The position numbers and the translations under genes are program-made. Shown in pieces: positions 40,324 through 64,000 of a DNA stretch of 64,000 bases. Below the pieces are notes generated by a model. It worked only from the letters and a program-made list of their open reading frames with translations, did no database searches and had not been told where the DNA came from. How positions within the stretch are numbered: the first letter of the stretch is position 1; each line of letters starts with the position of its first letter. Origin of the DNA: Povalibacter uvarum (GTDB lineage Bacteria; Pseudomonadota; Gammaproteobacteria; Steroidobacterales; Steroidobacteraceae); contig NZ_JACHHZ010000005.1 in assembly GCF_014202975.1 (NCBI RefSeq), positions 434,001-498,000 of the forward strand, read 5' to 3'.

Positions 40324-40329
40324 AGAAGT

Positions 40330-40370
40330 GGATGGCGGATAGCGGATAGCGGATAGCGGATGGCGGATAG
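40330..40370. repeat. Heptamer tandem repeat GGATAGC
   Basis: Six consecutive copies of ggat(a/g)gc, the last partial, run from 40330 to 40370, just after the TonB receptor stop. The final copies also form the left arm of the terminator. Such a tract can vary in copy number by slippage. Confidence 0.85.
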
Positions 40371-40391
40371 TGATCGGGACTATCCGCTTTT
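40363..40391 (+). terminator. Rho-independent terminator
   Basis: GCGGATAGT (40363-40371), loop GATCGGG, ACTATCCGC (40379-40387), then TTTT. This perfect 9-bp stem with a U-run ends the TonB receptor transcript. Its left arm is built from the heptamer repeat. Confidence 0.8.
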
Positions 40392-40397
40392 CCTTGT

Positions 40398-40516
40398 TGT
40401 GGGTCCGGCTTTAGCCGGACGTCATCGCCGTAGGCGATCCGGCGCCTCCGTCACTCCCGCGCACGCGGGAGTCCATCTGGATCAAAGGCATGGATTCCCG
40501 CTTTCGCGGGAATGAC
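40398..40516. repeat. Compound repeat: two small hairpins plus paired REP
   Basis: In order: GTCCGGC/GCCGGAC (40403-40420, loop TTTA), ATCGCC/GGCGAT (40424-40438), then two REP hairpins (40450-40474 and 40491-40516). The same three-part order recurs at 54959-55068. It lies between convergent genes. Confidence 0.85.
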
Positions 40517-40520
40517 GAAC

Positions 40521-46662: not shown

Positions 46663-46676
46663 CGGGTCACCCGTCA
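46660..46676. repeat. Perfect palindrome shared by two stop codons
   Basis: TGACGGGT-C-ACCCGTCA at 46660-46676. Its two ends are the TGA stop of the SDR gene (plus strand) and the TGA stop of the PEP-mutase-like gene (minus strand). Probably a compact bidirectional transcript end. Confidence 0.6.
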
Positions 46677-47489: not shown

Positions 47490-47659
47490 GAGGGCATCCT
47501 GTTGATCGAGATCACGATGGGCCGGCGTGCGCCGCCAGGTGTTCGCCACTATCGCGCGTCAGCATGGCTCGGCTCGAGGCGCCTGGCGATGACGGCGAGT
47601 ATGGATTCGCTGCTGCGAAAACACTCGCTGTTTTCGGACTTCGCCGAGGCGCGACGTTG

Positions 47660-49052: not shown

Positions 49053-50417
49053 TCAACTTGGCAGGTGTCGGCGCCAGGTGGAGCGATAGGTGTCGAGGTT
49101 TGGAATCGTGCACGCGCGGACGACAGCGTATTTGTCGTCGCCAGGGAGTTCGTAGCCCGCGAGATAGGTTGCTGCTCGGGTGCAGGCGCCGCTGGCGGAG
49201 CGCGATAGAACGCCGGACTGCGGGCGCCACGTTGCGAGCAGGGAGAGAAAGAGAGGATTCGACGCGAACGGGCCGTCGACGAGTACGTCGCCGCTGGCAC
49301 CGAGTAAGTCGAGTAGCAGATCGCTGAGCAGAGCGCAGTAGGCGCTGGCGAGCGCCTGGCGTTGCGGATCGGTCAGATCAGATGCGTTCAGCAGATGGCC
49401 TTTCGACCCCGCGAACGGGCCTGCCGGCGCGAATGCCGGCAGGGCGAAGGCGCCACGCTTCACGATGGCCGCGAGATCATCTTCGGTCGCAGCGCCTGCC
49501 CGTCCGGCAATCGCCTCATACTCGCGGCCGCCCATGAATCGCGCTGTTGCAACCGGTGAGCCGAAGGCATCGACGTTGGCGAGCATGTCGCGCTGGTCGT
49601 CGAGATTCGAGAGATCGCCGCGGTTCGCCATGAGCACCGTCCAGGTGCCGCTCGAGATCACGGCGAAAGGCTGCTCGCGCGGACGATCGATCAGGTACTG
49701 CAGATACGACGCATTCGAATCGTGGATACCGCAGATCACGCGGCAGCTGCGCGGCAGTCCGGTCTGGACAGCAATCGATTCCGACACCGTGCCGAGTGCT
49801 TGTCGCGCAGGCAGAACATCGGGCAGCAAGCGATCCCATCCATTCGCGCGTGCCAGCGCCGAGAACTGTCCGGCATGCGGCCGCCACAGATCAGTGTGAC
49901 ATCCCAGCGATGTCGCCTCGCTCGCCATGACGCCGCTGAATCGCCAAGCCCAGTATTGAGGATATAGAAGGACGTGCCGCGCGCGATCGTAGGCCTCCGC
50001 CTGGCGATGCTTCAGATAGAACAGTTGGCGCGCGAGATTCAGACCGAGCGGCAGGGCAGGTGAGAGCGTCTCCACGAACGGATCGCGCTCGCGGGCATAA
50101 GCATCATTGATCTGCTCGAAGCGCGGATCTTCATAGTCCGGGGCGGCCACGACATCGCCGTTCGCATCGACCAGCACCGCGGTTGCGCCGTGAGCAATCG
50201 GCACGAGTGCTGCGACGTGAGCCGTTTCCGGCGCTGACCGAAACCGTTCGATCAGCCAGCGCTCGATGCCGGCGACATCGAGTTGTCGGCCGATCGCCGA
50301 GTCGATACTGGCGTTCGCGTGCTTGTGGCTCGAAGCCTCGCGGCCGGTGGCCGCGTCGATGAAGCTGAGCTTCGAATGCGTCTTGCCGATGTCGATGATG
50401 GCAATGAACGTCGGCAT
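49053..50417 (-). CDS. rhaK: FGGY-family L-rhamnulose kinase
   Basis: Phosphorylates L-rhamnulose to L-rhamnulose-1-phosphate. FGGY motifs: ATP-binding start IAIIDIGKTHSKLSFID, CGIHDSNASYLQYL and the second phosphate motif ISSGTWTVLMANRG. 454 residues from the ATG at 50417. The frame extends to 50528 over the regulator gene and is rejected. It is downstream of the DeoR regulator and close to an aldolase/dehydrogenase, isomerase and mutarotase, the set found in rhizobial rha loci with RhaK rather than RhaB. Confidence 0.88.
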   Translation of the reverse strand: MPTFIAIIDIGKTHSKLSFIDAATGREASSHKHANASIDSAIGRQLDVAGIERWLIERFRSAPETAHVAALVPIAHGATAVLVDANGDVVAAPDYEDPRFEQINDAYARERDPFVETLSPALPLGLNLARQLFYLKHRQAEAYDRARHVLLYPQYWAWRFSGVMASEATSLGCHTDLWRPHAGQFSALARANGWDRLLPDVLPARQALGTVSESIAVQTGLPRSCRVICGIHDSNASYLQYLIDRPREQPFAVISSGTWTVLMANRGDLSNLDDQRDMLANVDAFGSPVATARFMGGREYEAIAGRAGAATEDDLAAIVKRGAFALPAFAPAGPFAGSKGHLLNASDLTDPQRQALASAYCALLSDLLLDLLGASGDVLVDGPFASNPLFLSLLATWRPQSGVLSRSASGACTRAATYLAGYELPGDDKYAVVRACTIPNLDTYRSTWRRHLPS

Positions 50418-50436: not shown

Positions 50437-51240
50437 TCAGGCCAGCTTCTGCTGCGAGTCTTCGTCGGTGGCTTTCGCGAGAATGATCTTGATGCCGGCG
50501 GTGCGGAAGGCTTCGAGCTCTTCTTCACGCGCTTCGTCGTCGGTGATGATCGTGGAGATGCGATCGAGGCCGGTGACGATCATCGCGGATTTCTGTCGCA
50601 GCTTGCTGCTGTCGGCCATCACGATCACTTCCTCCGTCCGCTTCAGCAGCTTCGTTTGCGCCTGCACGATCAGCGGATCGGCTTCCATCATGCCGAAGCG
50701 GTTGATGCCGTAGCAGCCGGTGAAGAGTTTGTGGCCCCAGAAGTTGTCGATCGTGTCGTTGCTGAAAGGGCTCAGCACGATGTTCTGTTCACGGTAGATC
50801 GTGCCGCCGGGAAGGGTGATGCGATTGCGGCTGGTGGCGAGCAGCTTGGCCGCGATGGGAAAAGAGTTCGTGAGCACATCGAGATCGTGGTCCGCCAGGA
50901 ATTCGACCAGCGCGAACGTCGTCGTGCCGCCGTTGATGATGATGCTTTCGCCCTTGTTGATCAGCGCCGCGGCAGCTCGTGCGATGGCTCGCTTCTGACC
51001 GACTGCGATGTCCTGGCTCACCGAGAACGGCATCCCGACCAGATGCGACTGCAGTCGCGGCCGCAGGGCCTCGGCACCACCGCGGATCCGGCGCAGCTCA
51101 CCGCGTTCGGCCAGCGTATTGATGTCGCGGCGGATGGTGGCTTCGGAGGCATCGAGCAATTCCAGCAACTCGGCGACCCCCACGAAGGAGCGTTCCTCCA
51201 CGAGCTTGAGAATCAGATGGTGCCGTTCGCGTTCGAGCAT
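50437..51240 (-). CDS. rhaR: DeoR-family regulator of rhamnose genes
   Basis: 267 residues. The N-terminal winged HTH is LERERHHLILKLVEERSFVGVAELLELLDASEATIRRD, followed by the DeoR hallmark LAERGELRRIRGGA. The C-terminal sugar-phosphate-binding domain has GESIIINGGTTTFALVEFL and ADSSKLRQKSAMIV. I chose the ATG at 51240; the longer frame to 51396 covers the promoter. It is divergent from the aldolase gene with a likely operator between them. Relatives in rhizobial rha loci (RhaR) repress rhamnose genes. Confidence 0.9.
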   Translation of the reverse strand: MLERERHHLILKLVEERSFVGVAELLELLDASEATIRRDINTLAERGELRRIRGGAEALRPRLQSHLVGMPFSVSQDIAVGQKRAIARAAAALINKGESIIINGGTTTFALVEFLADHDLDVLTNSFPIAAKLLATSRNRITLPGGTIYREQNIVLSPFSNDTIDNFWGHKLFTGCYGINRFGMMEADPLIVQAQTKLLKRTEEVIVMADSSKLRQKSAMIVTGLDRISTIITDDEAREEELEAFRTAGIKIILAKATDEDSQQKLA

Positions 51241-51335: not shown

Positions 51336-51373
51336 TGATCGAAAATGCGCGATGCTGATTGTAGCTGATCGAT
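51336..51373. promoter_or_regulatory. Bipartite DeoR operator candidate, site A
   Basis: Two TGATCGA half-sites at 51336-51342 and 51366-51372 start exactly 30 bp apart. TGATCGAAAATG and TGATTGTAG, an 8-bp variable spacer, and TGAtCGAT recur with identical spacing at 63232-63269. The site lies between the divergent rhaR and rhaD starts. A -10-like TATGAT (51377-51382) for rhaD follows at once, with any -35 box inside the operator, which fits repression. On the minus strand TACAAT is a possible -10 for rhaR. Confidence 0.72.
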
Positions 51374-51442
51374 TCGTATGATACACAGTGCGCCACAAGC
51401 CCCGGGGTGTCACCCGTGGGTCAATGCTGACGGGGGAGTCTG

Positions 51443-53578
51443 ATGGACGCGTCCAAGTTCAGGCAAGCGGCGGAGGACGTGCCTCCGTCCAGGCAGAACT
51501 TGCTGGAAAATCGCTGGGATACGTCGGTCGCCGCCAAGCTTTCCCCGCCCGAGCTGCTCCTCTATCGATCGAATCTGCTCGGTTCCGACAAGCGCGTGAC
51601 CAATTTCGGCGGGGGCAACACCTCGGCCAAGGTGACTGCAAAAGACCCCCTGACCGGTCATCCGGTCGAGGTGCTCTGGGTGAAGGGATCCGGGGGCGAC
51701 CTGGGAACGATGAAGCTGGACGGCTTCGCCACCTTATATATGGAGAAGTTCCAGTCGCTCGAGGGGTTCTTCCAGGGACCCGAGAGTGACGCGGAAATGG
51801 TCCGGCTCTACTCGCACTGCACCTTCGATCTGAATCCCCGCGCCGCCAGCATCGACACGCCTCTCCATGGGCTCGTGCCCTATGCCCATGTCGATCACAT
51901 GCATCCCGACGCAATCATTGCGATTGCCGCTTCCGCCGACAGCCGGGCGCTGACGCAGAAGATCTTCGGCGAAGAGATCGGCTGGTTGCCGTGGATCCGA
52001 CCCGGCTACGAGCTCGGATTGCGGCTGCGCAAGTTCGTGCGCGAGAACCCGAAGGCGCGCGGCGTCATTCTCGAAGCGCACGGTCTCTTTACGTGGGCGC
52101 AGTCGTCGGTCGCGTGCTACGAGAACACGATCGACATCATCAACCGCGCGACGCAGTGGCTCGAAGGCCAGAGTGAAGGCCGGCAGCCGTTCGGGCCGCA
52201 GAAGTCCGCGCCACTGTCGGCAGAGAAGCGCCGCGAAGTTGCCGCGGCAGTAATGCCACGCGTGCGTGGTTTGATCTCGAAGAACGTCCGCAAGATCGGA
52301 CATTTCGACGACAGTCCCGCGGTGCTCGAGTTCGTGAACAGCGGCAAGCTCGACGAACTCGCCGCACTGGGCACGTCCTGCCCCGATCATTTCCTGCGCA
52401 CGAAAATCTGGCCGCTGGTTCTGCCATTCGATCCCGCGAAGGAAACCGTCGAGCAGCTGATCGCGCGCATCGGCCCTGCAGTCGAAGACTATCGAGCGCG
52501 TTATGCGGCCTACTACGAGCGCTGCAAGCGACACGGATCGCCGAAGATTCGCGATGCGAATGCCGTCGTCTATCTCGTTCCCGGCGTCGGCATGTTCACG
52601 TTCGCTGCCGACAAAGCCACGGCGCGTATCGCCGGTGAGTTCTATCTCAACGCGATCAATGTGATGCGCGGTGCAAGCGCCGTGTCGACCTACCGCGGCC
52701 TGCCTGAGCAGGAAGCGTTCGATATCGAATACTGGGATCTCGAAGAAGCGAAGCTGCAGCGCATGCCGAAGCCCAAGCCGCTTGCGGGCCGCATCGCGCT
52801 CATCACCGGCGGTGCCGGCGGCATCGGAATCGCAAGCGCCCAGCGGTTGCTCGACGAGGGCGCATGCGTCGTCATCTGCGACATCGATCGCGATGCACTC
52901 TCGGGTGCGGAAGAACGTCTGCGGACGCAATACGGCAAGGACAGCGTCGCCGGCTGCTGGGTCGACGTGACGCGCGAAGATGCCGTGGGCAAGGCATTCA
53001 GCGATCTCGGCTGGATCTTCGGCGGGATCGACATCTGCGTGTCGAATGCGGGCATCGCATCCGCGTCGCCGATCGATGAAACCTCGCTGGCTACATGGCA
53101 GCGCAACATCGATATCCTGGCGACGGGCTACTTCCTGATCGGCCGCCAGTCGTTCCAGCTCATGAAAGCGCAGGGCATCGGCGGATCGATCGTCTTCATC
53201 GGCTCCAAGAATGCTCTGGCTGCGTCGGCTGGTGCGGCTGCGTACTGCACAGCCAAGGCCGCCGAGCTGCATCTGGCACGCTGCCTCGCGCTCGAAGGCG
53301 CAGTCGCGGGCATTCGTGTGAACGTCGTGAATCCGGACGCCGTATTGCGCGGCTCGCGCATCTGGCAGGGCGAATGGGCCCAGCAGCGCGCCGAGCAGTA
53401 CAAGACCAGCACCGACGAGCTCGAATCGGTTTATCGTGAGCGCAGCCTGTTGAAGCGCAGCGTGTATCCCGAGGACGTGGCGGAAGCCGTCGCGTGGTTT
53501 GCCTCGGAGCGCTCGGCGAAATCGACGGGTAACATCATCAACGTCGATGCGGGGAATGCCCAGGCATTCACGCGCTGA
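51443..53578 (+). CDS. rhaD: Rhamnulose-1-P aldolase / lactaldehyde dehydrogenase fusion
   Basis: A bifunctional 711-residue enzyme. Residues 1 to about 430 are a class II aldolase with zinc ligands His149/His152 or His154 (PYAHVDHMHPD) and His213 (EAHGLF), splitting L-rhamnulose-1-phosphate into DHAP and L-lactaldehyde. From residue 448 there is an SDR domain: TGGAGGIG (455-462), SNAG, and Tyr601/Lys605 in YCTAK, which should oxidise lactaldehyde to lactate. The fusion is the known RhaEW/RhaD type of rhizobia and bacilli. GGGGGAG precedes the ATG. It is followed by the isomerase gene 62 bp downstream. Confidence 0.94.
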   Translation: MDASKFRQAAEDVPPSRQNLLENRWDTSVAAKLSPPELLLYRSNLLGSDKRVTNFGGGNTSAKVTAKDPLTGHPVEVLWVKGSGGDLGTMKLDGFATLYMEKFQSLEGFFQGPESDAEMVRLYSHCTFDLNPRAASIDTPLHGLVPYAHVDHMHPDAIIAIAASADSRALTQKIFGEEIGWLPWIRPGYELGLRLRKFVRENPKARGVILEAHGLFTWAQSSVACYENTIDIINRATQWLEGQSEGRQPFGPQKSAPLSAEKRREVAAAVMPRVRGLISKNVRKIGHFDDSPAVLEFVNSGKLDELAALGTSCPDHFLRTKIWPLVLPFDPAKETVEQLIARIGPAVEDYRARYAAYYERCKRHGSPKIRDANAVVYLVPGVGMFTFAADKATARIAGEFYLNAINVMRGASAVSTYRGLPEQEAFDIEYWDLEEAKLQRMPKPKPLAGRIALITGGAGGIGIASAQRLLDEGACVVICDIDRDALSGAEERLRTQYGKDSVAGCWVDVTREDAVGKAFSDLGWIFGGIDICVSNAGIASASPIDETSLATWQRNIDILATGYFLIGRQSFQLMKAQGIGGSIVFIGSKNALAASAGAAAYCTAKAAELHLARCLALEGAVAGIRVNVVNPDAVLRGSRIWQGEWAQQRAEQYKTSTDELESVYRERSLLKRSVYPEDVAEAVAWFASERSAKSTGNIINVDAGNAQAFTR

Positions 53579-53640
53579 CGACATCGAGCGGCCCGCGGTC
53601 GTTACGACATGACGGGCCCCGGACGACGAGGGGGTAGGTC

Positions 53641-54948
53641 ATGACGGGAAATCCCGCAGCCACGTTCATCCAGGCGCGTGCGATCGAGCAAGCGAACGCA
53701 CGCCTGCAGGCGGATCTCGAGCAGGACTATCAGCGCCTGGGCGAGCTGCTCACGCGCAACGGTATCGAGATCGACTCGGTCACGAACGCCGTGGCTGCAT
53801 TCGAAGTCGCGATTCCTTCGTGGGGTGTCGGCACTGGCGGGACCCGGTTCGCGCGCTTTCCGCAGCCCGGTGAGCCTCGCTCTGTTTTCGAGAAGCTCGA
53901 AGACTGTTCCGTGATCCAGCGATTGACCGGTGCGACGCCGCGAGTCTCGCTGCACTTTCCGTGGGACCAGACGGGCGACATCGCGGGGCTGAAAGCCTGC
54001 GCCGATGAGCTGAAGCTCGGCTTCGACGCGGTCAACTCGAACACGTTCCAGGATCGTCCCGGGCAGACGCAGTCCTACAAGTTCGGCAGCCTGACGCATA
54101 CCGATCCCGCGGTACGAGAGCAGGCAATCGCGCACAACATCGAGTGCATCAAGATCGGTGCGCAGCTCGGCTCAAAAGCACTGACGCTGTGGATCGGCGA
54201 CGGAGCGAACTTCCCGGGCCAGCAGAACCTCGCGCGTGCGTACGAGCGGTATCTCGAGTCTGCTGCAAAGATCTACGCAGCGTTGCCTTCGGACTGGCGG
54301 CTGCTCATCGAGCACAAGATGTACGAGCCGGCGTTCTATGCGACGGTGATCCAGGACTGGGGCAGTTCACTGATGGCGGCGCAGACGCTCGGTCCGAAGG
54401 CATTCTGCCTCGTCGACCTCGGCCATCACGCGCCCAATGTGAATATCGAAATGATCGTGAGCCGGCTCGTGCATGCGCGCCGTCTCGGCGGCTTCCATTT
54501 CAACGATTCGAAGTACGGTGACGACGACCTCGATGCGGGATCGATCGACCCGTACCGGCTGTTCCTGATTTTCAACGAGCTCGTCGATGCTCAATGGCGC
54601 AAGACGCCGGACCTCGCGCTCGCGCATATGCTCGACCAGTCGCACAACGTCACTGACCCCGTCGAGAGCCTCATGAGCAGCGCGATCGAGCTGCAGCGGG
54701 CGTACGCGCAGTCCCTGCTCGTCGATCGCCGCACACTCGATGAGTACCAGCAGGACAACGATGCGCTCATGGCCTCGCACACGCTCAAACGTGCGTTCAC
54801 GACCGACGTCCAGCCGATCCTCGCGATGGCCCGCATGCGTCGCGGCGCGGCGATCGATCCGATCGGCACCTATCGCAGCAGCGGTTATCGCGCGGCCTGT
54901 GCGGCGCGCAGGCCGGCGAACCTGAGCTTCGGGGGCGGAATCGTCTGA
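53641..54948 (+). CDS. rhaI: L-rhamnose isomerase (RhaI type)
   Basis: Converts L-rhamnose to L-rhamnulose. A 435-residue TIM-barrel isomerase of the Pseudomonas stutzeri/Rhizobium type rather than E. coli RhaA. Metal-ligand regions: LLIEHKMYEPAF (Glu), LVDLGHHAPN (Asp/His) and HFNDSKYGDDDLD (His/Asp). The opening segment PSWGVGTGGTRFARFPQPGEP is characteristic. GAGGGGG precedes the ATG. It completes the rhamnose pathway with rhaD and rhaK. A compound repeat follows. Confidence 0.92.
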   Translation: MTGNPAATFIQARAIEQANARLQADLEQDYQRLGELLTRNGIEIDSVTNAVAAFEVAIPSWGVGTGGTRFARFPQPGEPRSVFEKLEDCSVIQRLTGATPRVSLHFPWDQTGDIAGLKACADELKLGFDAVNSNTFQDRPGQTQSYKFGSLTHTDPAVREQAIAHNIECIKIGAQLGSKALTLWIGDGANFPGQQNLARAYERYLESAAKIYAALPSDWRLLIEHKMYEPAFYATVIQDWGSSLMAAQTLGPKAFCLVDLGHHAPNVNIEMIVSRLVHARRLGGFHFNDSKYGDDDLDAGSIDPYRLFLIFNELVDAQWRKTPDLALAHMLDQSHNVTDPVESLMSSAIELQRAYAQSLLVDRRTLDEYQQDNDALMASHTLKRAFTTDVQPILAMARMRRGAAIDPIGTYRSSGYRAACAARRPANLSFGGGIV

Positions 54949-54958
54949 GGCTTCGACT

Positions 54959-55068
54959 GTGGGTCCCGCTTTAGCGGGACGTTATCGCCGACAGGCGATC
55001 AGCATCGTCATTCCCGCGAAAGCGGGAATCCACTCTGCTTCGTCATTTCCCGCGTTCGCGGGAATGAC
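54959..55068. repeat. Compound repeat: two small hairpins plus paired REP
   Basis: Same order as at 40398: GTCCCGC/GCGGGAC (54963-54980, loop TTTA), ATCGCC/GGCGAT (54984-54999), then REP hairpins at 55007-55033 and 55042-55068. It lies between the convergent rhaI and GH97 genes. Stem bases of the first hairpin changed in a compensating way (C-G to G-C) relative to the other copy. Confidence 0.87.
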
Positions 55069-55079
55069 GAGTGTGGCGC

Positions 55080-57017
55080 CTACTCCGCCGTCACCACGAA
55101 CCCACCTCGTGCCGCGATCGTCAGCTCGAGCGCCTTGCCGCGCTCAACCTGCATGCTCTGCGTCCGGAACGACAGGTTCCCACCCGGTCCATCGGTGATC
55201 AGCGTGCCCTTGCTCACGCCGAGCTCATCGAGCCTCAGCGTCACGCTTCGCGATTCCTTCTCCGCATTGATCCCGCACAGATACCACCGCTTGCCGCTGC
55301 GACGAGCGAGCACGACGTAGCGGCCGGGAAAGCCATCCAGGAACTTCACCTCGTCCCAGACGCTCGGGACACCCTTCATGAATTCGCGCACGTAGTCCGG
55401 GGCGCGTGCCATGCCTTCGGGAATCTCCGCGTAGTGAGTGATACCCGAGGTGAACAGAACCGACAGCGCCAGCTCGAAGGCGCTGCTCGTGCGCCGCTCG
55501 ATGTTGTTGATGCGATCGAGCACGACGGGCGTGAAGTCCATTGGATCGAACACGTTGCGCGTGAACGGCAGCATCGCGGCGTGCGTCGGCTCGTCCTCGG
55601 CGTTCTTCTGCTCGAACGTCACGAACTCGAGCCCGCGCACCGCTTCCATCGTCATCAGGTTCGGATAGGTGCGCTGCCAGCCACGCGGGAGCGTCGAACC
55701 GTGGAAATTCATCAGCAGTCCGAAGCGGGCGGCATCTTCGAGAATGTCGTGGTAGTACGCGATGGCGGACTGGCCGTCTCCAGGCAGGAAGTCGACTTTG
55801 AGCCCAACGACGCCCAGCGCCTTCACGCGGGTGAATTCGCGTTCGCGATCCTTTCGCGTGAGGAGCAGCCCGCGTGGCGTTTGCGGCGCCGTGTTCCAGT
55901 CACCGGCCGAGTTGTACCAGGCAAGAACGCTGACGTTGCGCGTGCGGGCGTAGTCGACGAGTTCCTTCATCTTCGCATCGCCGATCTGCTGGTCCCACAT
56001 GCTGTCGATCAGCGTGTAGCGCCAGCCCATGTCCGCCGCATAGTCGATGAAGCGCTTCTGCGTGTCGTAGGTCGTGAGCGGATCGCCGAGCAATGGCCAG
56101 CTCCAGGAAGCCTTGCCCGGACCCGGTCCGGGGATTTTGGCGCCAGGCGCGGGCTTGTCCGCGAGATCGGTGCCGAGTGTCGATTCGACGATCGTCTTCA
56201 GGCTGCCGACGACGACGAGTCGCCACGGTGTCTGCCAGGGCAGCGTCGACTGCGGATTCACCGGACCGTTCTGGAAATGCTCCAGTGGATCCGGGAAGCC
56301 GACGCGGTATTCGGTGCTGCGCCAGGTGCCTTTCAGTCGTGTGCCTGGGTAGTTGCGATCGAGTCCCGTCTCGCTGATCAGCAGCCAGGTGTCGCCGCTG
56401 CGGAAGAGTCCGGGATAAACCCAGCCGGCGCCGGTCGGCGAGGGCGTGCCGACGATCCACTCGCGATCGTAGATCTCCTCGTAGGAGGGATTGGTTTCGC
56501 TCCAGCCCGTCTTCGCCGCCGCGATCGGCTGCAGCCAGGTCATCGTGCCGGGCAGGAAGTTGAACGACGAGGTCTCTTCGCTGAGCCGATGCACCCGCGA
56601 GCTCGTTTCGGGGAACCGATAGCGGAAGGCCACGCCGTCGTTCGAAACCTGGAAGACGATCTCCAGCTTCTGGCCCGCTGCGGTCTGCAGCGATGCGACC
56701 TGGCGATTCGCCCGATACTCGTTGAGCCGGCGCTTCGAGGTCAGCAGCTCGTAGCGATCGACGACGGATTCCGATGCGGATACTGACGTGAGCCGCAATG
56801 CGCGAGTGAAGTCGGCGTCGTCTCGCACGAGACCCAGCTTCGAGGATTGCAGTAGAGGTTTGCCGGCGAGCTCGATGGAGTAGCGAGGCGAGCCTTCGGT
56901 GCTCACGTCGAACACTGCGACAACGCGCCCGTCGGGGCTCGTGATGCGCGTCGGTGCCGCGATGGCGAATGCCGTGGGCAGAAGGATCAGGGCGGTCGTC
57001 GCGATGGCTTTGAGCAT
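55080..57017 (-). CDS. GH97 glycosidase, retaining type, exported
   Basis: A 645-residue three-domain GH97 enzyme with a signal peptide ending AIAAP. The N-terminal beta-super-sandwich (to about 280) is followed by the TIM barrel and a small C-terminal beta domain. Nucleophile Asp409 in GLKVDFLPGDGQ and acid/base candidate Glu458 in MTMEAVRG match the retaining branch (alpha-galactosidase or beta-L-arabinopyranosidase) rather than SusB-like inverting alpha-glucosidases, which use glutamates. In this rhamnogalacturonan locus it would trim galactosyl or arabinopyranosyl side groups in the periplasm. Confidence 0.9.
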   Translation of the reverse strand: MLKAIATTALILLPTAFAIAAPTRITSPDGRVVAVFDVSTEGSPRYSIELAGKPLLQSSKLGLVRDDADFTRALRLTSVSASESVVDRYELLTSKRRLNEYRANRQVASLQTAAGQKLEIVFQVSNDGVAFRYRFPETSSRVHRLSEETSSFNFLPGTMTWLQPIAAAKTGWSETNPSYEEIYDREWIVGTPSPTGAGWVYPGLFRSGDTWLLISETGLDRNYPGTRLKGTWRSTEYRVGFPDPLEHFQNGPVNPQSTLPWQTPWRLVVVGSLKTIVESTLGTDLADKPAPGAKIPGPGPGKASWSWPLLGDPLTTYDTQKRFIDYAADMGWRYTLIDSMWDQQIGDAKMKELVDYARTRNVSVLAWYNSAGDWNTAPQTPRGLLLTRKDREREFTRVKALGVVGLKVDFLPGDGQSAIAYYHDILEDAARFGLLMNFHGSTLPRGWQRTYPNLMTMEAVRGLEFVTFEQKNAEDEPTHAAMLPFTRNVFDPMDFTPVVLDRINNIERRTSSAFELALSVLFTSGITHYAEIPEGMARAPDYVREFMKGVPSVWDEVKFLDGFPGRYVVLARRSGKRWYLCGINAEKESRSVTLRLDELGVSKGTLITDGPGGNLSFRTQSMQVERGKALELTIAARGGFVVTAE

Positions 57018-57064
57018 CAGGGCTTCCTTTGGTATTCGAGCGGCGAGAGTATCGCCGACCTTTC

Positions 57065-57131
57065 GTCACACCCGCGAACGCGGGTGTCCATCTCCATCTA
57101 AGGCATGGATTCCCGCGTACGCGGGAATGAC
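57065..57131. repeat. REP-like paired element overlapping a gene end
   Basis: Hairpin units at 57065-57090 (cacacccgcgaacgcgggtg) and 57106-57131 (attcccgcgtacgcgggaat). The transporter gene's stop codon (57098-57100) lies in the linker between the two units, so the last residues of that protein are repeat-encoded. Confidence 0.87.
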
Positions 57132-58615
57132 TGAGGAGGGTTGGCCGCCGCCCCGCGCCCCCACAACCGCTCATACGGCCACCCCGACAGATCTTCCACG
57201 ATGCGCCGGTTCTCCGGCGTCGGCTCGGTGCCGGGTTGTTCCTTGAAGCGTTTGATCTCGCCCATCAGGACTTCGTGCGTCTCCCGGTTCAGATGGAAGC
57301 GCAGCGACACGAAGAAGCCGAACGTGAGCAACGTCAGCGTGCCGAGTCCCATCACGATGAGAATCGTGGTGACAGCTTCGGACGACTGCGTCGCACTGCC
57401 GGCCACGAACCCGCCTGCCTGCAGGATCAAACCGACGCCCATTACCGCAGCGGCCTGTGTGGTCTTGCGCACGAAGGTCATCACGCCCGCGAACGCACCC
57501 TCGCGACGCCGGCCCGTCACGATCTCGTCGACGTCAGCCATGTAGTTGTAGACGTTCCAGGGAATGTAGTTGAGGCCGCCCCGGCCGAGGCCCGCCACGA
57601 GCACGGGCACATAGATCCACCAGGCCTGCGCGGGCTGAGCGTGATGCAGCGCCAGAAATCCGAGCACGGCGACGCCGAACAGCGATACCGCGATTCGATA
57701 CGAAGGCGCGGGGTGATAGTGCAGGCACATCGGAATGAAGACAGCGACGGAGAGCAACTGGGCAAATGCCATCGCTCCAAGATAGTTGGATGCAGCGACC
57801 ACCGTGCTGCCGAGCGCGAACACGACGAAGTACGTGAACGCAGCGTTGAATATGTCCTGGCTGATATAGCCGCCGAGATACATGCCGAGATGCAACCGGA
57901 ACGCGCGAATGCGCATCGTCGCCCAGAGATCGGAATAGAGGCGACGCAGGCTGCGCAACGGCGAAACATGATCTTCGCTGGCGATGCTTTCGATCTCTTC
58001 GCGCGGTCGTTCCCAGCTGAACGTGAAGACGGCCAGTGCAACCAGCATGAAGATGACCGAGAAGATGATGCCCAGGTACAGGAACGTCTCGGCCGACTGC
58101 TTGCCGAAGTGCTCGATGATCCGGCCAGGCAGGACACCTGCCAGGATCGCGGCGATCTGCCCGCAGAGGATGCGTGCACCCGCGAACTTGGCCTTCACCT
58201 TGTAGTCGGGCGACATCTCCGCGGCGAGCGTCTCGTACGGAATCAGCTCCATCGCATACACGACTTCGAAGAAGACGTATGTGACGAGGTAGTACCAGAA
58301 GCTCTGACCCTCGATCCACATCAACGCGAAGCTCGGCAGCAACGGCACGGCCAGCAGCACGAAGAAGCGCCGGCGACCGAATTTCCTGCCGAGCCGCGTG
58401 CGATGGAAATGATCGGACAGATAGCCGATCAGCGGGCTTGCCACCGCATCGAACAACCGCGCGATAGCGAAGATTGCCGCCGCCTGCACCGGCGTGAGCC
58501 CACAGAACGTCGTATAGAAAAACAGGATCCAGCCGCTGATGACGGCCATCGCGCCGGCACCGAGGAAATCGTTGGAGCCGTAGGCGAGATAGTGGCCGAA
58601 GCGGACGGGGCGCAT
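57098..58615 (-). CDS. GPH-family sugar transporter with repeat-encoded tail
   Basis: A 505-residue MFS/GPH transporter with about 12 membrane segments. Motifs: LAYGSNDFLGAGAMAVISGW, ARLFDAVASPLIGYLSDH, RKFGRRRFFVLLAVPLLP and YETLAAEMSPDYK. It likely moves rhamnose or unsaturated rhamnogalacturonan disaccharide into the cytoplasm, where GH105 and the rhamnose enzymes act. The last residues, SFPRTRESMP, are translated from a REP-like repeat, so the original C-terminus was probably replaced. It lies in the receptor, mutarotase, GH105, transporter, GH97 series. Confidence 0.9.
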   Translation of the reverse strand: MRPVRFGHYLAYGSNDFLGAGAMAVISGWILFFYTTFCGLTPVQAAAIFAIARLFDAVASPLIGYLSDHFHRTRLGRKFGRRRFFVLLAVPLLPSFALMWIEGQSFWYYLVTYVFFEVVYAMELIPYETLAAEMSPDYKVKAKFAGARILCGQIAAILAGVLPGRIIEHFGKQSAETFLYLGIIFSVIFMLVALAVFTFSWERPREEIESIASEDHVSPLRSLRRLYSDLWATMRIRAFRLHLGMYLGGYISQDIFNAAFTYFVVFALGSTVVAASNYLGAMAFAQLLSVAVFIPMCLHYHPAPSYRIAVSLFGVAVLGFLALHHAQPAQAWWIYVPVLVAGLGRGGLNYIPWNVYNYMADVDEIVTGRRREGAFAGVMTFVRKTTQAAAVMGVGLILQAGGFVAGSATQSSEAVTTILIVMGLGTLTLLTFGFFVSLRFHLNRETHEVLMGEIKRFKEQPGTEPTPENRRIVEDLSGWPYERLWGRGAAANPPQSFPRTRESMP

Positions 58616-58658
58616 GGAGGTGACTGTGAGCTATGAAATGACCAGGTCAGGGCTTCTC

Positions 58659-58729
58659 GTCATTCCCGCGAAAGCGGGAATCCATCGGAAGCCAGGGAAG
58701 GATGGACCCCCCGCTTGCGCGGGGGTGAC
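58659..58729. repeat. REP-like paired element
   Basis: Hairpin units at 58659-58684 (attcccgcgaaagcgggaat) and 58703-58729 (accccccgcttgcgcgggggt). It sits between the transporter start and the GH105 stop, inside a probable operon. Confidence 0.87.
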
Positions 58730-58740
58730 GACGTTGATGC

Positions 58741-59847
58741 TCAGATGAACGCCCTCTTGAACTCCACCAGCGCCAGCATCGCCATCGCCTGCCCATACGG
58801 CATCGACGTCAGCGGCACTTTGCGATAGCCATCCAGGTCATCGAAGACCGGGGTGCCGAACGACACGTTCCGCAGTTCGCCGGAAGGAGCGATGTTCGCG
58901 ATGACGGCCTTGAGGGCGCGGACGCCCGCGTCCTCGTACTTCGCGTCGATGTAGCGCTTCCGCACGGACTTGAGGATGCCGTAGGCGAATCCCGCGGTGG
59001 CGGAAGCTTCGAGATAGGAGTTCGGATCGTTGATCAGCGTGTGCCACAGGCCGCTCTTATCCTGGTGGCGTACCAGCGCGTCGATCTGTGCGACATGTGT
59101 TTCGAGCAGGAACTCACGCAACGAATCGCCGGGCTGCAGATCCAGCAGCTCGATGAACTCCGGGATCGCGATCGTGACCCAGCAATTGCCACGCGCCCAG
59201 AGCGCTTCGGCGAAGTGATGGTGGCCCTGGAACGTCCAGCCATGAAACCACAGACCGGTCTTGCGATCGACGAGGTACTTGATGTGCACCATGAACTGCC
59301 GCCGGGCCTCTTCGACGTACGCCGGACGATTCAGCAGCTTGCCGATCTTCGCCAGCGGCAACACGCTCATCATCAGCGTGTCGTCCCAGAGCTGCTGCGG
59401 GTTCTCGGAGTTGAACACGATGTGCTGGAAGCCGTTTTCCTGCGTGCGCGGCAGGCCGTGCATCACCCATTCGGCCCAGGTGTCGAGATAGGGCAGGTAA
59501 GTCTTGTCGCCGTGCTCCTCGTAAAGGTATGCGAGCGTCAGCAAAGCGGCGACCGTGTTGATGTTCTTCGTCGGCGTACCGCTGTGGAAGCGGTCGCGGA
59601 ACCAGCTCTGCATGATCGCAAGGCAGCGCGCGCCGTTCGTGAGCTGGTAGTACTTGTAGATACCGTACAGGCCGACGCCGTGCGTCCATTCCCAGTCGTT
59701 CCAGCCCTTGGTATCGATGACCCGGCCGTCGTCGAGGCGCAGCAGGAACTCTCCGGAGCTGTCCTTGATGTCCACCAGGTTGCTGATCAGAAGCTGGATG
59801 TGACGCTCGACATCGGCGGCATCGATGCCATGGGCAAGATTCGGCAC
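58741..59847 (-). CDS. GH105 unsaturated rhamnogalacturonyl hydrolase
   Basis: A 368-residue (alpha/alpha)6-barrel enzyme of the YteR family. It removes the 4,5-unsaturated galacturonyl residue left by rhamnogalacturonan lyase, freeing rhamnose. The catalytic aspartate is in LWDDTLMM (Asp155/156); WNDWEWTHGVGLYGI and FHGWTFQGHHHFAEALWARGN line the usual active site. No signal peptide, so it acts in the cytoplasm. No rhamnogalacturonan lyase gene is in the window; one may lie beyond 64000. Confidence 0.92.
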   Translation of the reverse strand: MPNLAHGIDAADVERHIQLLISNLVDIKDSSGEFLLRLDDGRVIDTKGWNDWEWTHGVGLYGIYKYYQLTNGARCLAIMQSWFRDRFHSGTPTKNINTVAALLTLAYLYEEHGDKTYLPYLDTWAEWVMHGLPRTQENGFQHIVFNSENPQQLWDDTLMMSVLPLAKIGKLLNRPAYVEEARRQFMVHIKYLVDRKTGLWFHGWTFQGHHHFAEALWARGNCWVTIAIPEFIELLDLQPGDSLREFLLETHVAQIDALVRHQDKSGLWHTLINDPNSYLEASATAGFAYGILKSVRKRYIDAKYEDAGVRALKAVIANIAPSGELRNVSFGTPVFDDLDGYRKVPLTSMPYGQAMAMLALVEFKRAFI

Positions 59848-59896
59848 GTCAGGTCCTCGGTACGTTCATTCGCACACGCTGCCAGTATTCACACAA

Positions 59897-60211
59897 TCAA
59901 TCCAGATGGAACAGCGGCTGCAGCGGCCATTCGCGCGGACGATTGTCCGGATGCGTCTCCATCAGATCGGCCATGTACTTCCACCAGCGCTGCATCACAG
60001 GATGCCGCGGCAGCGCCTCGCGCTGATTGTCGGGCGTGAGCTTCAGCACCGCGAAGAGGTGCAGCGTTTCCTCATCGAGGAAGATCGAGTAATCGTAGAT
60101 GCCGGAGTCCGTCAGCAGCTGTGACAGCTCCGGCCAGATCTCGTCGTGCCGGCGTCGATACTCTTCCACGACGCCGGGCTTGAGCTTCATACGGAATGCA
60201 TGGGTCGTCAT
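59897..60211 (-). CDS. rhaM: L-rhamnose mutarotase
   Basis: Interconverts alpha and beta anomers of L-rhamnose, supplying the form used by the isomerase. 104 residues, the normal RhaM/RhaU size. Motifs: FRMKLKPGVVEEYRRRHDEIWPEL (catalytic His), YDYSIFLDEETLHLFAVL, and RWWKYMADLM. It lies between the TonB receptor and GH105 genes on the same strand and has no signal peptide. Confidence 0.95.
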   Translation of the reverse strand: MTTHAFRMKLKPGVVEEYRRRHDEIWPELSQLLTDSGIYDYSIFLDEETLHLFAVLKLTPDNQREALPRHPVMQRWWKYMADLMETHPDNRPREWPLQPLFHLD

Positions 60212-60231
60212 GCGGGTCTCGCTGCAGTCTC

Positions 60232-63144
60232 CTACTGGAACCGGTACTGCACGCCCAGGCTGAACTGCCGGCCCGTATGGCCATACACGAACGTGCTGTC
60301 GCGGTCGGAGTCAATGTACTGCCGCTTGTACTCATCGAACAGGTTCAGCGCCTCGAAAGTCAGCTTGAACTGGTCGTTGAGGCTCCACGAAGCGGAGGCA
60401 TCGAAGGTCAGCATCTCGTCCGTGCCCTCGACGTCCTGCAGCGGATTGTTCGCCGGCAGCGCTTCGAGGAACTTGTCGCGATACGATGCCGACAAGCGGG
60501 CGCTGACAGTCGTGTTCTCCCAGTAGACCGTCGCGTTGTATGCGTTCTTCGACAGGCCGAGCAGATCGTCGCGCGTCGTGGTCGTTGCGCTCTGCGCGAG
60601 GTAGTACTCGATCTCGGAATCCACCCACGTGTAGTTCAGCAACGCGCCGAAGTTGCTCATCCAGCCCGGCAGGAACGAGAAGGCCTGCTGGTAGTTGATC
60701 TCGAAGCCCTTCAGCGGACCGCCTGGGGTGTTGACCGGACGGCTCACGGTGAACGGTGTGTTGTCGGGATCGAGATTCGTGCCGATCAGCAGCGCGAGCG
60801 GCAGGCCGGTCTCGCGGAAGCTCATCTGCTGCGACTGGTTCTGGATGTACGTCTCGATGTCCTTGTAGAAGAGACCCAGCGCCAGCAGCGAGCTTTCCGC
60901 GAAGTACCACTCGACCGACACGTCGTACGTCGTCGCGAGGATCGGTTCGAGGAACGGATTGCCCGAGCTCACGCCCGGTGTGCCCGTCAGATTCACAGCG
61001 CCGCCAGGTGTCAGGAACCCGATCTCAGGCCGCGACATCACACGTGCGACGGAGAAGCGACCGATCAGTTCGTCGCTGAGCTCCGCGGCCAGATTCAATG
61101 CCGGCAGGAACTCGCCGTAGTCGTGATCGACGGTGACCTGCACGGGAGTCGTGGCGACCTGATAGCCGGTCGATTCCAGGTCGGTCAGCACATAGCGCAC
61201 GCCGATATCGCCGCGCAGCGGGATGCCGAACACATCGAAGCGGAAGTCCTGCTGCAGATAGACGCTGGTGTCCTTCTCCGTCAGGTGCCGGATATTGCCG
61301 CGCGGTCCGGGAAGCTCCGAGCCGCCGAGTACCCACAGGCCGGTGCCGCTGTAGATGTCGTACTGATCGATGAACTTGTCGTAGTCCGTCGTGAGCCACG
61401 ACGACGGGAAGCGCCCCGAGAGACCGCCGTCACCAAAGCCGGTCACGAGACGCGTCACATCGGTGAGCTGCGCGGTAGTGAGATCCGGCACGAGGAAGTT
61501 GTTCGGACGCGCCTTGGCGTGAATGTCGTAGTCGAACTCCGTGAAGCGCGCGCCGAACTTCAGTGTCATGTCGTCGGCCCACGTCCACGCGAGACTGGCG
61601 TCGCCTGTGCGGTATTCGTTCTCGACCCAAAGCGGCGTCATGCGGACTTCGGCATTGCCCGCGCCGAACGTGTATTGCGCGGGATCAGTCACGTCGAAAT
61701 CGTGCGTGAAGGTCGGGCGGTCGCGATCCTGGGTGAAATCGATCGTCATGCCCGCGTTCGGCCGCTGGAACATGATGGTCGTCTGCACCGGCTGATCGAG
61801 ATTGTTCGTCGACTGGCCCGCGACGATGTTCAGCCGCAGCGTATCGCTGAACTCGTGCGATCCGGTGAGCGTGAACTGCATGAACTCGCTCTTCCACTCA
61901 TCGTGCTGCGTATCGGCGCGCACGTCGACGCCCTCGAAGGTGCCGAGGCCGATGTCGAAGACGTCCAGCCCGAAGTTTGTGCCCTGTGTATTGCTCACGC
62001 CGACGGGGATCAGTTCGGCGAAGCGGATCGCCGTCTGCGGCTTGCCGTTCTGGGAAATCGCGCGCGCGAACGAGAAGCCTTCGAGCCAGCTTTCCTCGCG
62101 TTTCACGTCGTAGTCGCTGTAGAGCGCGTCGAGCGTAAAGAGTGTCGAGTCGGCGGGCTGCCATTGCAGCGAGGCGCTGACACCGAGCCGTTCCTGGTCG
62201 TGCTCGAAGCGGCCATAACGAGGCAGGCGGGGCAGGAATACGGTGCTGCGGTTCACGAGGTCGTAGTAAGGGTCGTTTGCGGCTGGACGTTCGACACCGG
62301 TGGCACAATTCGCCGCGTCAGTGCCGCGAACCGGATCGTTCGCCGGATTCTGCGGCGTGCGGCCGACAGGCGTGCAGAAGCCGCCGTCGACGGTGGCCGG
62401 ATTCCAGCCGCCGGAGCCGAATTCTTCTTCGAAGTAGTGGCGCTCGGTGTAGGCGATCGACGCGAGTGCGCCGAACTTGCCGTCGGCCCACGTGTTGCTG
62501 ATCAGCGCCGAGAAGCGCGGCTCAACGTCTTCGGACAGATCGTTGTAGTTGCCCTGCACGCTCGTGACGAACGTGAGGCCGGGGAAGTCGAACGGCCGTG
62601 CCGTCGTCAGGTCGACCGTCGCACCGAGCGAGCCTTCGACGATTTCCGCCGAGGTGGTCTTGCGAACGGCGATCGTGTTGAACAGCTCGGACGCAAAGAC
62701 GTTGAAGTCGAAGCCGCGGCCGAGATTCGCGCCGCGGTCACTGACCGTGCCGCTCGCCGCGCTCTGCGCTTCCATCCCGTTGATGCGAACGCGCGTGAAG
62801 CTGGGATTCAAACCGCGAACGGTGATCGCCTTGCCTTCACCGGCGACCCGGGAAATCGAAACACCTGGCACCCGCTGGATCGATTCGGCGAGGTTCGAGT
62901 CCGGAAAGTCCGCGATGTCCTCGGCCTTGATGACGTCGACGACGCCGCTCTGTTCGCGCTTTTCGGCCAGGGCGCTCTCGAGACTCGCGCGATAGCCGGT
63001 GACGACGACTTCTTCGAGATTGGCGCCATTGGCCGCTCCGTTCGGAGTCGATGCCTCTTGCGCCGCAGCAGATGAGATTGCCAGGACCAGTGCCGGCGAC
63101 AACGCCTTCACGGCGCACGAAATCTTCTTCGATCCTTTCGACAT
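60232..63144 (-). CDS. TonB-dependent receptor of rhamnogalacturonan locus
   Basis: A 970-residue receptor. The signal peptide ends ISSAAAQ; TonB-box region NLEEVVVTGYRASLESALAEK; plug motif DIADFPDSNLAESIQRVPGV and RGLNPSFTRVRINGMEAQ, the TIGR01782-type carbohydrate receptor pattern; the C-terminus ends FSLGVQYRFQ. The ATG at 63144 has GGAGGGG upstream; the frame extends to 63324 across the promoter and is rejected. Probable ligands are rhamnogalacturonan-I oligosaccharides. The putative RhaR site lies 88 bp upstream. Confidence 0.94.
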   Translation of the reverse strand: MSKGSKKISCAVKALSPALVLAISSAAAQEASTPNGAANGANLEEVVVTGYRASLESALAEKREQSGVVDVIKAEDIADFPDSNLAESIQRVPGVSISRVAGEGKAITVRGLNPSFTRVRINGMEAQSAASGTVSDRGANLGRGFDFNVFASELFNTIAVRKTTSAEIVEGSLGATVDLTTARPFDFPGLTFVTSVQGNYNDLSEDVEPRFSALISNTWADGKFGALASIAYTERHYFEEEFGSGGWNPATVDGGFCTPVGRTPQNPANDPVRGTDAANCATGVERPAANDPYYDLVNRSTVFLPRLPRYGRFEHDQERLGVSASLQWQPADSTLFTLDALYSDYDVKREESWLEGFSFARAISQNGKPQTAIRFAELIPVGVSNTQGTNFGLDVFDIGLGTFEGVDVRADTQHDEWKSEFMQFTLTGSHEFSDTLRLNIVAGQSTNNLDQPVQTTIMFQRPNAGMTIDFTQDRDRPTFTHDFDVTDPAQYTFGAGNAEVRMTPLWVENEYRTGDASLAWTWADDMTLKFGARFTEFDYDIHAKARPNNFLVPDLTTAQLTDVTRLVTGFGDGGLSGRFPSSWLTTDYDKFIDQYDIYSGTGLWVLGGSELPGPRGNIRHLTEKDTSVYLQQDFRFDVFGIPLRGDIGVRYVLTDLESTGYQVATTPVQVTVDHDYGEFLPALNLAAELSDELIGRFSVARVMSRPEIGFLTPGGAVNLTGTPGVSSGNPFLEPILATTYDVSVEWYFAESSLLALGLFYKDIETYIQNQSQQMSFRETGLPLALLIGTNLDPDNTPFTVSRPVNTPGGPLKGFEINYQQAFSFLPGWMSNFGALLNYTWVDSEIEYYLAQSATTTTRDDLLGLSKNAYNATVYWENTTVSARLSASYRDKFLEALPANNPLQDVEGTDEMLTFDASASWSLNDQFKLTFEALNLFDEYKRQYIDSDRDSTFVYGHTGRQFSLGVQYRFQ

Positions 63145-63231
63145 GACCCCCTCCGGTGATATGGCCCGGTTCGCGCCTCTACAGGCGTCTGCCGGCCTGC
63201 TGTTTCGATGCCGGCCGATCATGGCAGTTTG

Positions 63232-63269
63232 TGATCGAAAATGAAATATTATGATTGTAGTTGACCGAT
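63232..63269. promoter_or_regulatory. Bipartite DeoR operator candidate, site B
   Basis: Matches site A (51336-51373) over both conserved blocks: TGATCGAAAATG, an 8-bp spacer of different sequence, then TGATTGTAG and TGAcCGAT. Half-sites TGATCGA and TGACCGA again start 30 bp apart. It lies 88 bp before the receptor start, close to the 96 bp between site A and rhaR, and in the same orientation relative to the gene. Confidence 0.72.
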
Positions 63270-63300
63270 CAAGGCGGCGAGACGCCGCCGTCGATCGGTC
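63263..63300. other. Two-tier hairpin between operator B and esterase end
   Basis: Outer arms GACCGATC (63263-63270) and GATCGGTC (63293-63300) enclose a GGCGGCG/CGCCGCC stem (63273-63289). The left arm overlaps the operator half-site and the right arm overlaps the REP element and the esterase stop. It may terminate the esterase transcript and compete with regulator binding. Confidence 0.55.
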
Positions 63301-63323
63301 ATCCCCGCGCACGCGGGGATCCA
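63298..63323. repeat. Single REP-like hairpin overlapping a gene end
   Basis: gtcatccccgcgcacgcggg with matching arm to 63323. The esterase stop (63299-63301) is part of this element, so the last residues of the esterase (GSPRARG) are repeat-encoded. Confidence 0.85.
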
Positions 63324-64000
63324 TCTGTCTCCAGCTGCTCGGCCAAATGACCCGTCAATCGCGCGTCCGCCGCCCGCATCCCCTCCACAACCCGCCTTGC
63401 CAGTTCATACGCCCCGTAGTCACTGTGATGAGTGAGATCGCGACCTTCGTCGGCGAAGGCGCGGGGCGCGCGTTGTGGGCCGAGCGATTCATAGAACTGT
63501 TTGCTAGCCGACCAGAGATCGATCACCGCGACGGATTCTTCCCGGGCAACTGCGCGAACCGCCTCCGGATAATCACCATGACTGTTCACGATGTGGCCGC
63601 CGTCGTCGAAGCGGCGCCGTTCCGGTGATGTGATCAGGATCGGCGTCGCGCCCCGTCGTCGTGCTTCGCCGATGTAGGCACGAAGATAGTCGCGATACGT
63701 TGTCGCCGCCTCGGCGTAGGTCTGCGGCCACTGCGCTTTCTGATCGTTGTGGCCGAACTGGATCAGCAGCCAGTCGCCCGGCTGCAGTGTCGAGAGGATC
63801 TTGTCGAGGCGCAGCCCAGTCATGAAGGACTTCAGCGTCTCGCCGGACTCGGCGTGATTCGCGATCGCGACATCGGGCTTGAAGAACCGCGGCAGCATCT
63901 GTCCCCAGCTCGCGGACGGTGCCGCTTGCTGGTCGGTGACCGTTGAGTCGCCGGCGAGATAGACAGTCGGCACGTTGGCGCGCTCGATCGTCACGGAGCG
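63299..64000 (-). CDS. Rhamnogalacturonan acetylesterase (CE12/SGNH), 5' end outside window
   Basis: Removes acetyl groups from rhamnogalacturonan. SGNH blocks: VYLAGDSTVTDQ (Ser nucleophile), SWGQMLPRFF, FGHNDQKAQWP (block III Asn) and DLTHHSDYGAYELARRV (catalytic Asp/His). The frame stays open to the window edge. The GTG at 63994 is probably internal, because no signal peptide is present and CE12 proteins of this type often carry an N-terminal domain. About 233 residues are visible. The C-terminal tail comes from a REP-like repeat. It is upstream of the TonB receptor on the same strand. Confidence 0.88.
   Translation of the reverse strand, partial: RSVTIERANVPTVYLAGDSTVTDQQAAPSASWGQMLPRFFKPDVAIANHAESGETLKSFMTGLRLDKILSTLQPGDWLLIQFGHNDQKAQWPQTYAEAATTYRDYLRAYIGEARRRGATPILITSPERRRFDDGGHIVNSHGDYPEAVRAVAREESVAVIDLWSASKQFYESLGPQRAPRAFADEGRDLTHHSDYGAYELARRVVEGMRAADARLTGHLAEQLETDGSPRARG

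Follow-up and report, generated by a model that had tools for sequence, protein, structure and literature searches.

Among the rhamnose regulators of bacteria, which also include the AraC-type RhaS/RhaR of E. coli with their inverted repeat of two 17-bp half-sites, those closest to the system described here are the DeoR-type proteins named RhaR. According to PMC3870299, the motifs of DeoR-type RhaR proteins from four lineages have unique sequences, yet consist of two imperfect direct repeats with a periodicity of 10-11 bp. The same paper presents the RhaR of Rhizobium leguminosarum as a negative regulator (a role restated in PMC9025865), reports binding of Chloroflexus RhaR to a 38-bp DNA that contained four TCGAAA repeats, and its release by L-rhamnulose, ascribes direct repeats with a 21-bp periodicity to AraC-type rhamnose regulators, and describes the dual function of RhaEW. 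Here we analyse a 64,000-nucleotide stretch of Povalibacter uvarum DNA (the window; G000:C5:434001-498000, in a genome of 6.32 Mb and 11 contigs), in which a 38-bp element occurs between the genes rhaR and rhaEW (rhaD) and again before a gene encoding a TonB-dependent receptor. Very probably these elements, together with two more sites elsewhere in the genome, are operators of the DeoR-type RhaR, built as four-unit arrays and serving four target groups of a shared rhamnose/rhamnogalacturonan regulon.

Direct comparison of the two 38-mers (51336-51373 and 63232-63269) revealed identity at 30 of 38 positions, i.e. the 28 recognised in a first-pass annotation of this DNA plus two more (AT, offsets 16-17) lying within the stretch that it had taken for a free spacer. 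The next-best match to the 30 common positions within the window, on either strand, reached 19/30, and a scan of all 6,321,800 bases with the two-block pattern (up to three mismatches) returned only these two places, the reversed-pattern control giving none. The coordinates annotated for the shared element were confirmed, no third genomic match was found, and many hits away from sugar genes did not occur. The first copy is located between the DeoR gene (50437-51240, minus strand) and rhaEW/rhaD (51443-53578, plus strand), and the second 87 bp upstream of the start codon of the TonB receptor gene (60232-63144, minus strand).

Judged from its sequence, the element is a tandem array of four 10-bp units with a consensus of about TGATCGATNN, and the supposed spacer is unit 2, the weakest unit. 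The arrays of the window are as follows:
51336-51375, plus strand: op1, in the rhaR-rhaEW gap, with units TGATCGAAAA, TGCGCGATGC, TGATTGTAGC and TGATCGATTC
51346-51355, plus strand: unit 2 of op1, making up most of the "free spacer" of the first-pass annotation
63232-63271, plus strand: op2, with units TGATCGAAAA, TGAAATATTA, TGATTGTAGT and TGACCGATCA; its gene, encoding the TonB receptor, is on the minus strand

A sequence model (R1), built from an alignment (A1) of ten elements (op1, op2 and eight from relatives), recovered two additional sites in the P. uvarum genome, both outside its training set: op3 (C5:502942-502969, E 3.7e-4) and op4 (C3:261302-261339, E 6.8e-4). The latter is a near-perfect 4 x 10 array (TGATCGATAA TGATCGATAG TGATTGATAA TGATCGTTGA), and op3, from C5:502930, also consists of four units (TGACCGAAGT TTATCGGAAA TGATTGTATA TGACCGATTC); op2, itself part of the training set, scored 32.5 bits. 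When each 10-bp unit was scored against TGAYYG (maximum 6), values of 6-4-6-6 (op1), 6-3-6-6 (op2), 6-5-6-6 (op3) and 6-6-6-6 (op4) were obtained, and TG recurs every ten bases in both window copies, the presumed spacer included. It is because of the op3 and op4 arrays and these unit scores that we assign the spacer to unit 2 of a four-unit tandem array. In an alignment of 12 operators (op1, op3, op4 and nine from other genomes; op2 was excluded because its gene is on the opposite strand) the TG and CG of unit 2 are retained in 11-12 of 12 rows, and in op2 the TG is retained and the CG is not. Two CGAT motifs (63206 and 63216; span 63206-63219) precede op2 by 30 and 20 bp, in the same phase, and are perhaps remnants of a longer array; with unit scores of only 3-4 of 6 they are not claimed as extra op2 units.

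Twenty genomes were scanned with a four-unit pattern (TGAYYG with N4 spacing, repeated four times, up to three mismatches). In P. uvarum this yielded six matches representing four sites, since op4 was matched in three registers, and the reversed-pattern control gave 0 in each of the 20 genomes. All four sites (4/4) lie beside rhamnose or rhamnogalacturonan genes. A three-unit pattern (up to two mismatches) was rejected as too loose, with 9 forward and 10 reverse hits in the same genome against 4 in the control; 7 of these 19 hits fall at op1, op3 and op4, and one other hit, C5:216985, has a single mismatch. Separately, a near-identical sequence (about TGACCGGCAATGAGCGAGAATTATCATAGTTGATTG) matches the four-unit pattern with three mismatches in five relatives (G001:C8:400544, G011:C9:2388618, G010:C27:60003, G003:C2:1277774 and G008:C907:20644).

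The genes next to the two window sites were identified as follows:
50437-51240, minus strand: rhaR, DeoR-family repressor of 267 aa (PF08220 and PF00455, over cut-off)
49053-50417, minus strand: FGGY-family sugar kinase after rhaR (FGGY_C_2; the NCBIfam rhamnulokinase model matches only far below its cut-off), probably a rhamnose/rhamnulose kinase
51443-53578, plus strand: rhaEW (rhaD), bifunctional rhamnulose-1-phosphate aldolase/short-chain dehydrogenase (NF006189, 1136.6 bits, and TIGR02632, both over cut-off)
53641-54948, plus strand: rhaI, L-rhamnose isomerase of the rhizobial type (TIGR02629, over cut-off)
60232-63144, minus strand: TonB-dependent receptor of the TonB-Xanth-Caul subfamily
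58741-59847, minus strand: GH88/GH105-type unsaturated glycosyl hydrolase (PF07470), an orthologue of which is found, like the MFS gene, next to a second RhaR in the related genome G012
57098-58615, minus strand: major facilitator superfamily (MFS) sugar transporter
55080-57017, minus strand: GH97 glycoside hydrolase, last gene of the TonB receptor same-strand run
63299-64000, minus strand: GDSL esterase whose frame runs past the window end, perhaps a rhamnogalacturonan acetylesterase

Thus op1 is flanked by rhaR and the FGGY kinase gene on one side and by rhaEW and rhaI on the other, while op2 heads the TonB receptor gene, followed on the same strand by the GH88/105, MFS and GH97 genes. At op3 (window-equivalent position 68930) rhaS, encoding a component of a rhamnose ABC transporter (TIGR02637, over cut-off), an ABC ATPase gene and a permease gene stand on one side, and lldD, the gene of an FMN (flavin mononucleotide) L-lactate dehydrogenase, on the other. 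L-Lactate is presumably the product of the lactaldehyde dehydrogenase half of RhaEW, and therefore an L-lactate dehydrogenase gene fits this position. The op4 site precedes a gene for a protein with all three PcRGLX domains, which we take to be a rhamnogalacturonan exolyase of the PL26 type (CAZy name). After op3 there follow a protein resembling oligogalacturonate lyase (Pectate_lyase22) and a further TonB receptor (L079, 10898-15271; window-equivalent 70897-75270), which suggests a larger pectin locus nearby. Elsewhere in the window, no link with rhamnose is evident for a PEP-mutase-family protein (46674-47549) or for the stretch 38098-44980, where a TonB receptor has an M20 peptidase and a PD40/amidohydrolase protein as neighbours.

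The distribution of the element largely follows that of the regulator. A search of 60 genomes, the P. uvarum genome included, detected rhaR (E at most 1e-30) in ten, and the element precedes rhaR in eight of the nine relatives concerned (G001, G003, G007, G008, G010, G011, G012 and G022); by tblastn, rhaEW is beside rhaR in seven of these eight, the exception being G007. An R1 site with an E value below 1e-8 is present in 9 of the 10 rhaR-bearing genomes (all except G013), and across the 14 genomes searched with R1 out of the 50 without rhaR, nothing better than E 0.096 was found. Additional information comes from G012, where orthologues of the GH105 and MFS genes of the op2 run (71% and 80%) are immediately followed by the gene for a second RhaR (71% identical), next to a TonB receptor gene (L086, G012:C80, 6681-13421). 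This is a copy of the regulator inside a rhamnogalacturonan operon, and it ties RhaR to the op2 run on separate grounds.

A wider comparison was based on a GTDB genome scan that confirmed at least 556 RhaR relatives. The best 80 of the 556 loci, together with one Martelella plasmid, gave 76 gaps in which rhaEW is divergent from rhaR; these are mostly from Rhizobiales, and some of the genomes overlap with the relatives listed above. Three units at period 10 reach at least 16/18 in 70 of the 76 gaps (the other six score 14 or 15), compared with 0, 0, 0 and 1 gaps at periods 8, 9, 11 and 12 and 0.2 in dinucleotide shuffles. Pairs of units scoring at least 11/12 occur in 73 gaps at period 10, in 40 at period 20, in 13 at period 30 and in 1 at period 21. 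The expectation of the first-pass annotation that the element would be conserved upstream of orthologues is therefore borne out, both before rhaR in eight of nine relatives and in 70 of 76 rhaR-rhaEW gaps. With their 10-bp units, the operators of P. uvarum also show the 10-11 bp direct-repeat periodicity of DeoR-type RhaR regulons.

RhaR itself carries a DeoR helix-turn-helix domain and a DeoRC sensor domain (PF08220 and PF00455), and no other protein of the genome exceeds the DeoRC cut-off, a single partial match lying below it. It is identical to R. leguminosarum RhaR at 138 of 266 positions (52%), including the whole of the stretch ASEATIRRDI, and Peristeroidobacter and Steroidobacter genomes carry the window repressor at 84% identity. 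In R. leguminosarum WSM1325 rhaI-rhaD is divergent from rhaR-rhaS, and the same order is found in relatives of the window locus such as L087. We infer that the two RhaR proteins are orthologous. The best-scoring NCBIfam name for the regulator, UlaR, falls short of its curated cut-off (196.6 bits against 244), and a search of solved structures with profile A2 gave no match at 1e-5.

Conserved sequences within and beside the arrays suggest the following promoter elements:
51359-51364, plus strand: putative -35 box of rhaEW, TTGTAG, within unit 3 of op1; conserved, with TTGACA in the corresponding rhizobial unit
51382-51387, plus strand: putative -10 box of rhaEW, TACACA, 17 bp past the -35 box and with TG one base upstream; the downstream block is conserved in the 12 operators
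63218-63245, minus strand: putative core promoter of the TonB receptor gene, TTCATT, 16 bp, CATGAT, overlapping units 1-2 of op2; the block is kept before four related receptors

Unit 3 of the Steroidobacter group reads TGATTGTATA or nearly so, and a conserved TAAACA or TACACA follows 17 bp on. TG stands one base before this hexamer in 10 of the 12 aligned rows (counted by eye); in op4 the block is one base further, and G007 is without TG. The last unit of most rhizobial arrays is TGATTGACA or CGATTGACA, with TTGACA, the consensus -35 hexamer. Unit 3 thus appears to double as the -35 box at op1, op3 and op4 (TTGTAG, TTGTAT and TTGATA, respectively), with the predicted -10 box 17-18 bp on. We put forward tentatively, as a possibility falling just short of probable, that the promoter is built into the operator: this unit would have TGATTG instead of TGATCG since TTGTAT, TTGATA or TTGACA serves as the -35 box, one hexamer would be contested by RhaR and RNA polymerase, and the overlap would be common to Steroidobacteraceae and Rhizobiales, the array having spread in P. 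uvarum to the TonB receptor, rhaS/lldD and rhamnogalacturonan lyase genes and so widened the regulon. A terminator-like site was also noted at 63209-63226 (plus strand).

Arrays resembling op2 and op4 were found at related genes. Of 29 further receptor loci, four (with receptors 42-44% identical to that of P. uvarum) score more than 20 bits, the others reaching 13.4 or less; these four share a weaker array (TGATYGAAAG TGAAATATTT TGAMGCWAAA TGATGGC) that is absent from the other receptor loci. A promoter-like block of 33 bp (AATATTTCAYTTTCRATCANNARCTGYCATGAT) is strongly conserved before the TonB receptor genes of four relatives (L029, L032, L033 and L034), and op2 contains it too. Weak R1 hits in rhaR-bearing genomes amount to 15 rows (E 0.35-8.5), of which L055 is the G013 remnant before rhaR; of the seven compared with lyase genes, five (L057, L059, L060, L063 and L067) stand directly before a PL11 or PL26 gene. 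Among the upstream regions of all 14 PL11/PL26 genes found in the ten rhaR genomes, several of which are homologous and so not independent, eight (the P. uvarum region included) hold a four-unit array on either strand with a shuffle P of 0.03 or less. In G003 and G011 the PL26 arrays coincide with the estimated start of the gene or are near it. One locus (L081, 15352-17613) encodes a PL11-type rhamnogalacturonan lyase with a CBM6 domain, has a weak RhaR-like array upstream and is clustered with one of the four receptors.

The first-pass annotation had proposed a different architecture, in which two contact blocks separated by a free 8-bp spacer are touched by RhaR on two DNA faces. The window copies do differ most in the spacer stretch, and unit 2 has the lowest score in each of op1, op2 and op3 (4, 3 and 5 of 6); however, the same stretch is a full unit (TGATCGATAG) in op4 and a near unit (TTATCGGAAA) in op3, and these arrays speak against a bipartite site with a free spacer. 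The eight bases described as unrelated belong to an in-phase 10-bp unit whose TG and CG are kept in nearly every aligned operator, and units spaced by 10+10+10 bp would present about one face of the DNA, not two. We regard the bipartite site as highly improbable. Least probable is that the element belongs to another regulator of the same genes, of the AraC, LacI or GntR type. It is true that AraC-type regulators use direct repeats too (at 21-bp periodicity; PMC3870299) and that units 3-4 are different in the TonB-type sites of relatives, but an AraC-type repeat is rejected on its period (1 of 76 gaps at 21 bp against 73 at 10 bp), strong sites are present in rhaR-bearing genomes and in none of the 14 rhaR-less ones searched, and in Rhizobiales, whose reported negative regulator is a DeoR-type RhaR, the rhaR gap contains the 10-bp repeat. 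Unlikely, to a lesser degree, is that RhaR operators are limited to op1, op3 and op4, op2 being mainly a conserved TonB-receptor promoter that resembles them. The 33-bp block it has in common with four related receptors that have poor units 3-4, a unit 2 that follows this block and not the unit consensus, and the three mismatches to the unit pattern all point that way. Against this stand the 30/38 match to op1, which includes an exact unit 1, nine bases in unit 3 and, in unit 4, TGANCGAT, and the location of the bases of units 3-4 outside the shared receptor block.

Several results weigh against the RhaR regulon as we propose it. By the unit pattern alone op2 has three mismatches, and ten rhaR-less genomes gave seven hits, all with three mismatches; on this pattern op2 could be a chance match, and its support comes from the 30/38 match to op1. 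Hits away from rhaR also occur in rhaR-bearing genomes, one of them, unexplained, with two mismatches (G008:C796). Each of the eight relatives has one strong R1 site only, and therefore the wide regulon is partly particular to P. uvarum; at most 150 candidates were scored per genome in the R1 searches. G013 possesses rhaR and has no strong R1 site, only units 3-4 and the downstream block remaining, and the 19 kb around its rhaR (about 4 kb of it on the upstream side of rhaR) yielded no rhaEW. No array was found near the second RhaR of G012, where the neighbouring TonB gene is interrupted by the contig end, so that its upstream region is out of view. Six of the 14 lyase upstream regions are without an array at a shuffle P of 0.03 or less, and two of these six carry a weak R1 hit. 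At neither window site did a generic sigma-70 scan call a promoter. Finally, the rhizobial gaps, taken from the best 80 of 556 loci, are those of close relatives and not independent.

The RhaR regulon could operate as follows. A RhaR oligomer would place one helix-turn-helix on each unit, the units being one helical turn apart and facing about one side of the DNA, and would cover the array when no rhamnose catabolite is present. At op1, op3 and op4, where unit 3 would be the -35 box, it would block RNA polymerase; at op2, the -35 box of the receptor gene would be overlapped by units 1-2. RhaR would leave the DNA in response to a rhamnose catabolite (rhamnulose or its 1-phosphate), and the four target groups would then be expressed together; their predicted operons comprise (i) rhaR-kinase and rhaEW-rhaI, (ii) the TonB receptor-GH105-MFS-GH97 run, (iii) rhaS, the ABC ATPase and the permease with the L-lactate dehydrogenase gene, and (iv) the rhamnogalacturonan exolyase gene. 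As a result, the cell would begin at the same time to degrade rhamnose and to take up a rhamnose-rich plant polymer. The identification of the element as a RhaR operator, already made in the first-pass annotation, gains support as a prediction from the four sites beside rhamnose/rhamnogalacturonan genes, from conservation before rhaR orthologues and from the 52% identity to R. leguminosarum RhaR. Its single regulon for uptake and catabolism is supported as far as joined control is concerned, but the extent is larger, with two more sites outside the window.

We therefore propose a four-site rhamnose/rhamnogalacturonan regulon for a bacterium of the Steroidobacteraceae, which would extend the operator grammar of DeoR-type RhaR (tandem 10-bp units, with a TTG variant at the putative -35 box) from Rhizobiales to this family and would place a PL26-type lyase and a TonB receptor under a named regulator, providing a lead on their substrates. 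Titles and opening lines of abstracts retrieved in literature searches on Steroidobacter/RhaR and rhamnogalacturonan contained no description of this Steroidobacteraceae regulon. It is a well-supported but ordinary extension of the known RhaR (DeoR) system. The Rhizobiales regulon (R. leguminosarum rhaRSTPQUK/rhaDI) resembles it in the repressor, in the divergent rhaR-rhaD gap with TGATCG-like units at 10 bp, and in the presence of rhaI, rhaD/EW and rhaS. It differs in that the rhizobial gaps mostly contain three clear units, the last being TGATTGACA, whereas P. uvarum has four, three further sites (at the TonB receptor, rhaS/lldD and rhamnogalacturonan lyase genes) and a rhaS that lies some 17 kb away from rhaR and has its own operator. 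In PMC3870299, Chloroflexus aurantiacus RhaR, likewise of the DeoR family, is described with four tandem repeats (TCGAAA) in a 38-bp DNA that was bound in gel shift, binding being abolished by L-rhamnulose, but DeoR-type RhaR groups are counted there as non-orthologous, each with its own motif. The RhaS regulon of Erwinia chrysanthemi, as presented in the same paper, is alike in that one regulator joins rhamnose and rhamnogalacturonide genes; RhaS is an AraC-family activator, whereas in P. uvarum this role would be played by a DeoR-type repressor.

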